Positions 31,969 through 34,961 of a stretch of 64,000 nt of DNA are shown here, one piece after another. Numbering within the stretch: the stretch's first letter is position 1; each line of letters starts with the position of its first letter. Source of the DNA: Rhizobium sp. NXC24 (GTDB lineage: Bacteria; Pseudomonadota; Alphaproteobacteria; Rhizobiales; Rhizobiaceae); NCBI RefSeq assembly GCF_002944315.1, contig NZ_CP024311.1:2642501-2706500 (forward strand), in the 5' to 3' direction. The translations under genes and the position numbers were made by a program. The notes under the pieces are model-generated. The model saw nothing but the letters and a program-made list of their open reading frames with translations. It did not search any database and was not told the DNA's origin.

Positions 31969-32209
31969 TTTTCTTGCCTTTCTTTAATTCCCAACCGGCA
32001 GCTTCTATATAAAGCGCGAAAATACGCAAGAAAGTTTCCCGCGCGTGACCGAATCTTACACAAAGCAGATTTGCTCTGTTAGTAATGCAAGGCTGCCCTT
32101 GAATAAATGCATGCGACAATCATAAATGAGGCGGCGGATCGTGAAATCGCCTGCTTTTGCCCGTTTGAAGCCGCGGCTTCCCGAAGCGCTTAGATTGAAA
32201 GGACTACAC

Positions 32210-33184
32210 ATGCCTGCCCGCCATACCAAGGTGCTCATCATCGGTTCCGGCCCCGCCGGCTATACGGCCGCCGTTTATGCCGCGAGAGCCATGCTGAAGC
32301 CGGTTCTGATCGCCGGCCTCGAACAGGGCGGCCAGCTTATGATCACCACGGATGTCGAAAACTATCCGGGCTTTGCCGATCCGATCCAGGGCCCGTGGCT
32401 GATGGAACAGATGCTGCTGCAGGCCCAGCATGTCGGCGCGGAAATCGTCAACGATCTCGTCACCGAAGTCGATACCACCAAGCGCCCCTTTGTCGCGCGC
32501 ACCGACAGCGGTCAGGTCTGGACCGCCGACACGCTGATCATCGCGACCGGCGCCAAGGCCAAATGGCTGGGCATCGAGAGCGAACAGCATTTCCAGGGCT
32601 TTGGCGTTTCCGCCTGCGCCACCTGCGACGGCTTCTTCTATCGTAATAAGGATGTGATCGTGGTCGGCGGCGGCAACAGCGCCGTCGAGGAAGCGCTCTA
32701 TCTCTCCAATATCGCCAAGTCGGTCACCGTCGTGCATCGCCGCGATTCGTTCCGCGCCGAAAAGATCCTGCAGGAGCGCCTGTTCGCCAAGGCAAACGTC
32801 AAGGTTCTCTGGAATACCGAGGTTGCCGAAATCACCGGCACGCCGGCCAAGCCGCCGATGCCGCCGTCGGTTTCCGGCGCACGCCTGCGCGACACCCGCA
32901 CGGGCGTCGTCACCGACGTAACGATAGACGGCGTGTTTGTCGCCATCGGCCACGCACCGGCAACGGAACTCTTCAAGGGCAAATTGAAGCTCAAGGACAA
33001 TGGCTATCTCTGGACTGCACCCGATTCGACTGCGACCAACGTCGAAGGCATCTATGCCGCCGGTGATGTGACCGACGATACGTTCCGGCAGGCGATCACG
33101 GCAGCAGGGATGGGCTGCATGGCGGCGCTTGAGGCGGAACGCTACTTGACCGGGCATATGCCCGTCGCCGTAGCTGCGGAGTGA
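32210..33184 (+). CDS. trxB: Thioredoxin-disulfide reductase
   Basis: This flavoprotein reduces thioredoxin with NADPH. The start MPARHTKVLIIGSGPAGYTA (32210, 324 residues) has AAAGGA 8 nt upstream and matches the usual length; the open frame continues 28 codons upstream without similarity. The FAD site GSGPAGYTAA, the redox CATC (Cys136, Cys139) and the NADPH site GGGNSAVEEALYL are intact. The C-terminal FAD site reads GIYAAGDVTDDTFRQAITAA. A LysR gene (lsrB) starts 23 bp after the stop, so redox enzyme and regulator are likely co-transcribed. Confidence 0.97.
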   Translation: MPARHTKVLIIGSGPAGYTAAVYAARAMLKPVLIAGLEQGGQLMITTDVENYPGFADPIQGPWLMEQMLLQAQHVGAEIVNDLVTEVDTTKRPFVARTDSGQVWTADTLIIATGAKAKWLGIESEQHFQGFGVSACATCDGFFYRNKDVIVVGGGNSAVEEALYLSNIAKSVTVVHRRDSFRAEKILQERLFAKANVKVLWNTEVAEITGTPAKPPMPPSVSGARLRDTRTGVVTDVTIDGVFVAIGHAPATELFKGKLKLKDNGYLWTAPDSTATNVEGIYAAGDVTDDTFRQAITAAGMGCMAALEAERYLTGHMPVAVAAE

Positions 33185-33207: not shown

Positions 33208-34104
33208 ATGCCATTGGATTGGGACAAGCTGCGTATCTTTCACGCGGCTGCCGAAGCGGGCTCGTTCACGCACGCGGCGGATAAATTGCATCTGTCCCAA
33301 TCCGCCATCAGCCGCCAGGTCAGCGCGCTCGAGCAGGACGTCGGCATCAAGCTGTTCCACCGCCACGCACGCGGCCTGATCCTGACCGAACAGGGCGAAT
33401 TGCTGTATCGCACCGCGCATGACGTTCTCTTGAAGCTCGAAACGGTCAAGATGCAATTGACCGAAACGACCGATAAGCCGAGCGGCAAGCTGCGCGTGAC
33501 GACGACCGTCGGCCTCGGCCAGGGCTGGCTGACCGACAAGATCCAGGAATTCCTACAGCTTTATCCCGACATGTCGATCCAGCTCATCCTCGACAATGAG
33601 GAGCTGGACGTGAACATGCGCCATGCGGACTGCGCCATCCGACTGCGCCAGCCGCAGCAATCGGACTTGATCCAGCGCAAGCTCTTCACCGTCCATATGC
33701 ATGTCTACGCCGCCCCCTCCTACATCAACCGCTATGGCGAACCGCAGTCGGTGGAGGCTCTGGACGAGCATCGCATCATCAGTTTCGGCGAACCGGCGCC
33801 GAACTATTTGCTCGACGTCAATTGGCTGGAGATTGCCGGCCGCTCGTCGGACAACAAGCGCGTTCCACATCTGCAGATCAACAGCCAGACGTCGATCAAG
33901 CGCGCCTGCCTGCTCGGTATCGGCATCGCCGTACTGCCGGACTACATCGTCGGCCGCGATCCGGGCCTTATTCAGCTTGCGATCAATGCCGACGTGCCGT
34001 CCTTCGACACCTATTTCTGCTATCCCGACGAAATGAAAAACGCCGCCAAGCTCAAGGTTTTTCGGGATTTCATCGTCGCCAAGGCACGGAACTGGAACTT
34101 TTAG
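33208..34104 (+). CDS. lsrB: LsrB/VtlR-type LysR regulator
   Basis: I start the 298-residue protein at MPLDWDKLRIFHAAAEAGSF because AGGGG lies 8 nt before this ATG; other in-frame ATGs overlap trxB. The winged HTH (HAADKLHLSQSAISRQVSAL, FHRHARGLILTEQGELLYRT) is followed by a LysR substrate domain. Sequence and position directly after trxB match S. meliloti LsrB and Agrobacterium/Brucella VtlR. These control oxidative-stress, LPS and symbiosis or virulence genes and activate AbcR sRNAs (family knowledge). Two AbcR-like sRNA genes follow immediately, which supports the identification. Confidence 0.9.
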   Translation: MPLDWDKLRIFHAAAEAGSFTHAADKLHLSQSAISRQVSALEQDVGIKLFHRHARGLILTEQGELLYRTAHDVLLKLETVKMQLTETTDKPSGKLRVTTTVGLGQGWLTDKIQEFLQLYPDMSIQLILDNEELDVNMRHADCAIRLRQPQQSDLIQRKLFTVHMHVYAAPSYINRYGEPQSVEALDEHRIISFGEPAPNYLLDVNWLEIAGRSSDNKRVPHLQINSQTSIKRACLLGIGIAVLPDYIVGRDPGLIQLAINADVPSFDTYFCYPDEMKNAAKLKVFRDFIVAKARNWNF

Positions 34105-34176
34105 TTGAGCTAAGACTCTGTGTTACAAGCGTTTTTTGCCGTAATATATCTGTCACGCGTATGACGCATGGCTGAT

Positions 34177-34220
34177 ATGCACAAAACAGAGTTGAAGCCT
34201 GCCCAATTAACTACCATATC
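34177..34220 (+). promoter_or_regulatory. Promoter and upstream box of the first AbcR-like sRNA
   Basis: The box ATGCACAAAACAG (34177-34189) abuts a -35 element TTGAAG (34192-34197), a 17-nt spacer and a -10 element CATATC (34215-34220). The predicted start is near 34227. The same layout aligns without gaps to the second copy, and the box position just upstream of -35 suits a LysR-type activator such as LsrB. Confidence 0.6.
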
Positions 34221-34226
34221 GCACAT

Positions 34227-34342
34227 AGCTGATGCATATGGTGGCTTTTCCTCCCAGTTCCACCGCATTGGCTGTTCCCCTCTGGAGGTTTTTAACCTTC
34301 ATACCTATAGGGCCCTGGTTGTTACCGGTGGCCCTTTTTTTT
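34227..34342 (+). ncRNA. abcR: AbcR-family (alpha-r15) trans-acting sRNA, copy 1
   Basis: This is a non-coding transcript of about 116 nt. A first hairpin GGTGG (34240-34244)/CCACC (34260-34264) exposes the anti-Shine-Dalgarno loop CCTCCC (34250-34255). A second unpaired C/T-rich motif CCCCTCT (34277-34283) precedes GGAGG. The 3' end is an intrinsic terminator with AGGGCC (34309-34314)/GGCCCT (34330-34335) and eight Ts. The tandem arrangement behind lsrB and ahead of an arsR gene is that of S. meliloti AbcR1/AbcR2. These Hfq-dependent sRNAs silence many ABC-transporter mRNAs by covering ribosome binding sites. Which copy equals AbcR1 is not determined here. Confidence 0.9.
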
Positions 34343-34379
34343 GCCCTTTTTCAGCAGAGGCCGCAAACGCATAACTGCC

Positions 34380-34423
34380 ATGCACAAAAAAGCATTGCGC
34401 ACTGCACAAATTAGCATCATACC
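34380..34423 (+). promoter_or_regulatory. Promoter and upstream box of the second AbcR-like sRNA
   Basis: ATGCACAAAAAAG (34380-34392), then TTGCGC (34395-34400), 17 nt, and CATACC (34418-34423). The -35 and -10 boxes are weaker than in copy 1, so the two copies may differ in strength or in dependence on an activator. Confidence 0.55.
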
Positions 34424-34429
34424 GCACAT

Positions 34430-34545
34430 AGCTGATGCACATGGTGGCTTTTCCTCCCAGTTCCACCGCAGCAGCTGTTCCCCTCTGGAGGTTTTTGACC
34501 TTCACACCTATAGGGCCCTGGTTATTCCGGTGGCCCTCTTTTTTT
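34430..34545 (+). ncRNA. abcR: AbcR-family (alpha-r15) trans-acting sRNA, copy 2
   Basis: This second transcript of about 116 nt is roughly 90% identical to copy 1 and begins 203 bp downstream of it. It keeps the GGTGG/CCACC hairpin with the CCTCCC loop, the CCCCTCT motif and the terminator AGGGCC/GGCCCT (34512-34517/34532-34537), followed by CTTTTTTT. Differences are concentrated between the two anti-SD motifs (GCAGCAG instead of GCATTGG) and in the terminator loop. The target-pairing loops are identical, so target sets should overlap while expression may differ. Confidence 0.9.
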
Positions 34546-34604
34546 GCCCAAATTCTAAGCATGCCCACGAAGCGCATTGCATAAAATAATTTGCTGCGCC
34601 GCAT

Positions 34605-34652
34605 CTTGATATATCGAAAATCGACGATACATGAATCGTTAATTTTCGATAT
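34605..34652. promoter_or_regulatory. Long perfect dyad over the arsR promoter (putative operator)
   Basis: ATATCGAAAAT (34611-34621) and ATTTTCGATAT (34642-34652) are perfect 11-bp inverted repeats. An inner pair ACGAT (34624-34628)/ATCGT (34635-34639) is also present. CTTGAT (34605-34610) could be the -35 box with TACATG (34628-34633) as -10, inside the dyad. The arsR ATG lies 15 bp beyond. This is the expected arrangement for autorepression by an ArsR dimer. Confidence 0.7.
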
Positions 34653-34667
34653 TCAGCCGGTGACGTC

Positions 34668-34961
34668 ATGGATAGAACTGAGATACTAAAGGCCTTGGCC
34701 CATCCCGCCAGGCTCGAAATCCTCAATCAGCTCAAAGATCCGCACGCCCATTTTCCGACCCAGGAACATCCGCTGGAGCTGGGTGTCTGCGCCAGCCAGT
34801 TCGAGCGCTGCGGCCTATCGCAATCCACCGTTTCCGCCCATCTCGGCACATTGCATCGCGCTGGCTTGGTGACCACCAAGCGCCTCGGCCAGTGGATTTT
34901 TTATAAGCGCAACGAAGAAACCATCGCCGAATTCCTTGCCACTCTTCAGAAGGAACTTTGA
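34668..34961 (+). CDS. ArsR-family repressor
   Basis: The 97-residue winged-HTH protein has the ArsR core ILKALAHPARLEILNQL and recognition region CGLSQSTVSAHLGTLHRAGL, then the wing TKRLGQWIFYKRNE. It lacks the ELCVCDL metal motif. Instead Cys41 and Cys48 sit just before the recognition helix (GVCASQFERCGLSQ), which suggests thiol or redox sensing rather than arsenic. It is followed after 1 bp by an MFS gene and then an old yellow enzyme gene. An 11-bp dyad covers its promoter. A homologue lies at the same place beside the AbcR genes in S. meliloti. Confidence 0.92.
   Translation: MDRTEILKALAHPARLEILNQLKDPHAHFPTQEHPLELGVCASQFERCGLSQSTVSAHLGTLHRAGLVTTKRLGQWIFYKRNEETIAEFLATLQKEL

Follow-up and report, generated by a model that had tools for sequence, protein, structure and literature searches.

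Sibling sRNA pairs are often explained by split inputs. LsrB is a redox-sensing activator. The stretch of 64,000 nt from Rhizobium sp. NXC24 analyzed here (the window) contains two tandem copies of an AbcR (ar15) sRNA downstream of a gene for an lsrB/vtlR-type regulator, which raises the question of whether the second copy adds a new input or a larger dose. In the AbcR pairs of Sinorhizobium meliloti and Agrobacterium tumefaciens, one copy is driven by LsrB/VtlR and the other is not; Rhizobium pairs with the same activator site on both copies allow dosage to be compared directly with input splitting as the cause of the persistence of such pairs. The best reading of the window locus, and one considered probable, is that of a dose-doubled AbcR pair driven by LsrB, in which each copy has a promoter and a terminator to itself.

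The sRNA pair between lsrB and arsR

The gene order at the locus is trxB-lsrB-sRNA-sRNA-arsR, all on the plus strand. The thioredoxin-disulfide reductase gene trxB, a conserved neighbor, was taken as the listed ORF (32126..33184; TIGR01292, 400 bits, cut-off 343.45, part 32210-33181); its real start is possibly more internal. The product of lsrB (33208..34104) belongs to the LysR family by NCBIfam, none of the 25 NCBIfam matches listed being an equivalog above its own cut-off for this product, and the gene order is that given for A. tumefaciens (trxB-vtlR-abcR1-abcR2-arsR) in the accessible part of PMC7486931. The start codon at 33208 was chosen within an ORF that begins at 33181, and the stop codon lies at 34102-34104. 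Between this stop and the start of the conserved downstream neighbor, an arsR-type regulator gene (34668..34961; NF033788, 65.5 bits, cut-off 55), there is a gap of 563 bp that holds both sRNA copies. The window LsrB was 99% identical to those of the R. multihospitium and Rhizobium sp. P40RR-XXII loci (the best named records, in a ranking from which records of the host genome itself were possibly excluded) and 90–91% identical to those of Sinorhizobium/Ensifer loci.

An Rfam scan of the window at the gathering threshold listed two matches, two lower-scoring overlapping matches of the same clan having been dropped. The proximal copy (34227..34344, with terminator and U-tail) matched the ar15 model RF02345 at 34227-34340 with 116.1 bits (E-value 8.1e-24), and the distal copy (34430..34546, likewise) at 34430-34542 with 122.5 bits (E-value 1.9e-25); both matches covered the full model length, the cut-off being 40 bits. 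Given these E-values, a chance match is excluded for both copies, and the covariance search bears out the AbcR membership proposed when only the letters of the DNA had been read. The model spans 114 nt of the proximal and 113 nt of the distal copy, the U-tails ending near 34344 and 34546, and the two are 92.1% identical (105/114 columns). The sequence-only reading had described two ∼116 nt stretches, some 90% identical, in a 563-bp intergenic region next to lsrB as in S. meliloti and Agrobacterium, which agrees with these values and with the gene order; the S. meliloti pair lies between lsrB and SMc01226 according to excerpts of PMC3712013. Tandem AbcR pairs are already known, and the one in the window is an authentic pair of the usual kind. 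Two ORFs that overlap the sRNA region, 34341-34589 (+) and 34305-34604 (-), were regarded as chance ORFs.

Each copy folded into three predicted hairpins, with CCUCCC in the loop of the first, CCCCUCU between the first and the second, and a terminator hairpin, matching the elements noted in the sequence-only reading. Minimum free energy z-scores were -3.77 for the proximal copy and -2.86 for the distal one (equally stable shuffles, 0/200 and 2/200, respectively). The three hairpins were kept in an alignment of 30 ar15 sequences, with at least one two-sided change in 10 of the 27 predicted pairs. A generic terminator scan listed neither sRNA terminator (both stems are bulged) and found one minus-strand site. 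The putative anti-Shine-Dalgarno seed aSD1/M1, TCCTCCCA, occupies the hairpin-1 loop at 34249..34256 in copy 1 and 34452..34459 in copy 2, unpaired in both folds; seed aSD2/M2, TTCCCCTC, is at 34275..34282 and 34478..34485. The S. meliloti AbcR1/AbcR2 pair, as described in the accessible parts of PMC3712013 and PMC8844928, likewise lies in tandem between lsrB and arsR and has three hairpins, aSD1 and aSD2, and a box before AbcR1.

The hairpin-1 loop and both seeds are identical between the window copies, as the sequence-only reading had noted for the loops. This departs from the alphar15 sRNAs surveyed in PMC3712013, which are multi-copy and, in the text available, have a variable 5′ loop in most chromosomal duplicates. 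It also differs from A. tumefaciens, where AbcR2 reportedly lacks M1 and is VtlR-independent (excerpts of PMC7486931), whereas both window copies have M1, M2 and a box. A 3-nt difference, ATT/GCA, sits in the 3′ strand of the hairpin-1 stem; the remaining differences are single bases and one terminator-loop indel. The ATT/GCA change, earlier attributed to a linker between the anti-SD motifs, thus belongs to the stem.

Promoters of the AbcR copies

In S. meliloti, LsrB drives AbcR1 via the sequence GCAT-N3-TG-N3-T at -61 to -49, while AbcR2 is mostly RpoH1-dependent, with no LsrB box found in its promoter, according to the accessible part of PMC8844928. For A. tumefaciens, binding of VtlR to the abcR1 promoter has been shown, with no competition from abcR2 DNA (excerpts of PMC7486931); for S. 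meliloti 1021, the same excerpts report that LsrB has no effect on AbcR1/2, which contradicts PMC8844928.

Both window copies showed the AbcR1-type motif at -61. The predicted LsrB box of copy 1, GCATGGCTGATATGCACA (34166..34183), fits the published consensus, and that of copy 2, GCATAACTGCCATGCACA (34369..34386), is a strict-pattern match; each begins 61 nt before its sRNA. Scored with a matrix made from the first copies of other loci, the boxes reached 27.6 (copy 1) and 23.6 (copy 2), values attained in either case by 0/300 base shuffles of the 100 nt lying upstream. The strict pattern GCATNNCWGNNNTGCRCA had two matches in the genome (7.3 Mb, 4 contigs), both at this locus, and the reversed control had none; since the pattern had been tailored to this pair of copies, only the absence of further matches is informative. 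The RpoH-like sequence CCCATAT was present in neither window promoter. The sequence-only suggestion that the copies might be expressed differently thus finds no support as regards input. Their core promoters do differ (TTGAAG...CCATAT in copy 1, TTGCGC...TCATAC in copy 2), with the larger departure from the published -35/-10 in copy 2, so the two promoters may possibly be of unequal strength. A generic sigma-70 scan of 34000-34700 returned no promoter, its consensus differing from the alphaproteobacterial one given in the accessible part of PMC8844928. AbcR2 in the S. meliloti sense has an RpoH1-type promoter without an LsrB box; the distal window copy is boxed and lacks CCCATAT, and judged by its sequence should not be named AbcR2 in that sense. 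More generally, the label ‘AbcR2, stress sRNA’ is not safely transferable to Rhizobium.

Of 80 named lsrB loci compared, 78 yielded ar15 matches at the gathering threshold, the two without one being L068 and L078; with the window included, the 79 loci comprised 47 tandem pairs and 32 single copies. Box scores exceeded 10 for all 47 proximal copies and for 31 of the 32 single ones, the exception (L085) scoring 8.0. Distal promoters were bimodal: 21/47 were boxed (+14 to +28) and 26/47 boxless (-9 to -24). CCCATAT was present in the -10 region of 19/26 boxless distal copies, as against 0/21 boxed distal, 0/47 proximal and 1/32 single copies. The boxless distal copies included, by record title, those of Sinorhizobium/Ensifer, Agrobacterium, Neorhizobium, Shinella, Mycoplana and Martelella, together with Rhizobium-titled records outside the window's clade. 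Within that clade (35 rows with support 88/88, not starred, in an sRNA-body tree built on a short alignment and with many forks open), all 17 distal copies of the 17 pairs were boxed. The tree omits ten loci whose first match was below 80 bits (L070, L071, L076 and L079-L085). Four pairs outside the clade were also boxed (L010, L059, L060 and L072). In the last of these, Hoeflea halophila (L072:4065-4412), both tandem copies are boxed and their 75-nt upstream stretches are identical at 70/75 positions; this pair is perhaps an independent duplication. Two loci resembling those of Rhizobiales came from records titled Bacillus subtilis (L083) and Arenimonas sp. (L042), which are probably mislabeled or contaminated.

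The M2 sequence CCCCTCT was conserved in 125 of the 126 ar15 copies scored. Among the 21 boxed distal copies, the M1 sequence CCTCCC was found in seven, namely those of the window, L006-L010 and L072; in the window's clade, the remaining 12 distal copies have CTCTCCC in its place.

Conservation in the genus and origin of the pair

Across 60 genomes from the genus to which the window belongs (its own counted), ar15 was identified in 59, and a tandem ar15 pair in at least 53 going by the matches listed. These counts rest on 150 ar15 and 150 box matches listed, genome G047 being incomplete for the boxes; box matches were listed for 38 genomes, whose 37 pairs made up the checkable set. Among these matches, the strict box preceded both copies in 29/37 pairs, the distal copy alone in 7/37 and neither in 1/37; the distal copy had it 61–62 nt upstream in 36/37. 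Two proximal copies without a strict box had a box-like sequence at -61 (L250, scoring 25.5, and L251, scoring 20.3). Other ar15 copies in those genomes had a strict box at -61/-62 listed in at least 24 of 34 cases, and of the ten extra copies left, eight were boxed and two (L244 and L249) boxless; a strict box was present at L248, and seven extra copies had a box-like sequence at -60 or -61 with scores of 11.9 to 14.1. In total, 89 of the 150 box matches listed precede listed ar15 copies.

The boxless copy L244 (G024:C7:24775-24886) has CCCATAT in its -10 region and is possibly an RpoH-type copy inside the genus. The host genome contains a third, divergent ar15 copy (74.1 bits; C2:54947-55060, equivalent to L004:9948-10061 on the minus strand) on a 271-kb contig, flanked by a gene for an LLM-class flavin monooxygenase and a cysE-like gene; the region upstream of this copy lacks an LsrB box, the best matrix score being -9.2.

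Two other readings of the pair have to be weighed against these data. The window might be wired as in S. meliloti, the proximal copy being LsrB-driven and the distal one a stress (RpoH) sRNA, so that expression is split. That arrangement is known from S. meliloti (accessible part of PMC8844928), and the host genome encodes RpoH, with one match above the family cut-off and a second below it. The lack of an RpoH-like promoter at the pair is therefore not for want of RpoH, and a distal copy that is boxed at -61 and lacks the CCCATAT of most boxless distal copies makes such a division of inputs improbable.

The distal copy might instead be a duplicate or gene-converted copy with no function of its own, its likeness to the proximal one reflecting homogenization and not selection for dose. 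The history of the sequences is compatible with this: a single clade of all tested distal copies was rejected (p_AU 3.25e-6; 44 rows vs 69, with four odd or long rows omitted, namely the L039, L064 and L015 distal copies and L003), proximal and distal copies interleave within the window's group in the body tree, and the 92.1% identity within the genome falls among the values obtained when species of that group are compared (89.6–94.0% for the window proximal copy against four others, 93.0–97.4% for the distal one). Given the rejected topology, the distal copies of different genera do not form one orthologous line in the body tree, which either repeated tandem duplication or gene conversion would explain; when the single-clade grouping was restricted to the 17 distal copies from the clade of the window, p_AU was 0.057. 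However, the distal copy has lost neither its seeds nor its terminator nor its box, and the distal position is boxed in all but one of the checkable genus pairs among the matches listed, so a distal copy without a function of its own seems unlikely.

In the preferred reading, that of a dose-doubled pair, LsrB is predicted from the boxes to bind upstream of and activate both copies, and Hfq, the gene for which was found in the genome, would be expected to hold each sRNA. The two unpaired C/U-rich seeds would then pair with the ribosome-binding region of mRNAs for substrate-binding proteins, blocking their translation. With LsrB as the predicted activator of both copies, the second would mean more dose and not a new input: it would raise the output of one LsrB-driven response with no added stress (RpoH) input. 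The identical seeds and the presence of a box on both make the window copies alike in seed and promoter class, which fits the redundancy that the sequence-only reading had proposed. A statement that both AbcR copies have the LsrB motif was not found in the literature searched; that search covered neither the del Val 2012 survey of alphar15 nor the Sheehan and Caswell 2018 review nor supplementary promoter alignments, so the claim to novelty is weak.

Candidate targets and the NfeR1 genes

In S. meliloti, the two seeds work through base pairing at ribosome-binding sites, and a seed equivalent to aSD1/M1 has been tested there (excerpts of PMC8844928). To look for such sites in the host genome, the translation starts of 44 substrate-binding-protein genes (the best 14 of 22 PF13458 and 30 of 31 PF00497) were compared with those of 60 TetR/SDR controls (the best 30 of 44 TetR_N and 30 of 84 adh_short), start codons being set by a rule that prefers ATG plus a Shine-Dalgarno sequence. 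GGGAGGA or TGGGAGG was present in 7/44 genes vs 1/60 controls (one-sided Fisher 0.0096, uncorrected, with six motif sets tried), and GGGAGG in 7/44 vs 2/60 (one-sided Fisher 0.029, uncorrected). No clear excess was seen for the exact M2 complement GAGGGG (1/44 vs 2/60) or for the set GAGGGGA, AGAGGGG or GGGGAAC (4/44 vs 2/60); AGGAGG was found in 1/44 vs 8/60 and GGAGG in 10/44 vs 11/60. Raw duplex energies did not separate transporter from control starts (Mann-Whitney p 0.29 for M1 and 0.085 for M2), while shuffle-normalized duplex z values gave p 0.014 (M1) and 0.025 (M2). The motif counts may thus lend modest backing to a role in transporter regulation that otherwise comes from published relatives. 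The earlier view of the pair as repressors of transporter mRNAs stands mainly on those relatives, this test adding weakly to it.

The box was also checked at other genes. Allowing one mismatch, the pattern had 49 sites in the host genome, 47 of them additional to the pair, against 7 for the reversed control. The genome contains four ar14/NfeR1 genes (RF02344), and a box-like site was found upstream of three: 56 nt upstream of the gene at C1:4101877-4101999 (L228:1378-1500, minus strand), 56 nt upstream of that at C1:529643-529768 (L254; ar15 matrix score only 7.5) and 95 nt upstream of that at C4:676939-677061 (L253; score 21.1 with the same matrix). The fourth gene (L252) had no box-like site upstream. 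By our own arithmetic, with the distance picked post hoc, about 0.001 such coincidences would be expected by chance within 100 nt on the same strand. NfeR1 (alphar14) belongs to a separate Rfam family and lies elsewhere in the genome; like AbcR it is an anti-Shine-Dalgarno sRNA, and it is activated by LsrB in S. meliloti (accessible part of PMC10746234), so the box derived from ar15 recovers a known LsrB target.

For the genus Rhizobium as a whole, the chances appear about even that LsrB drives nearly the whole set of anti-Shine-Dalgarno sRNAs (the two AbcR copies of the tandem, most of the additional AbcR copies elsewhere in relatives' genomes and most NfeR1 copies), and would thereby set the total dose of a multi-copy brake on nutrient uptake, the Sinorhizobium RpoH branch being missing at the locus. 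A further box-like sequence, GCATTTCAGCCATGCGCA, was located 117 nt upstream of a tRNA gene in two genomes (L230:1537-1554, minus strand; L231:1486-1503, plus strand), and the same or a near-identical sequence was present in further members of the genus among the matches listed.
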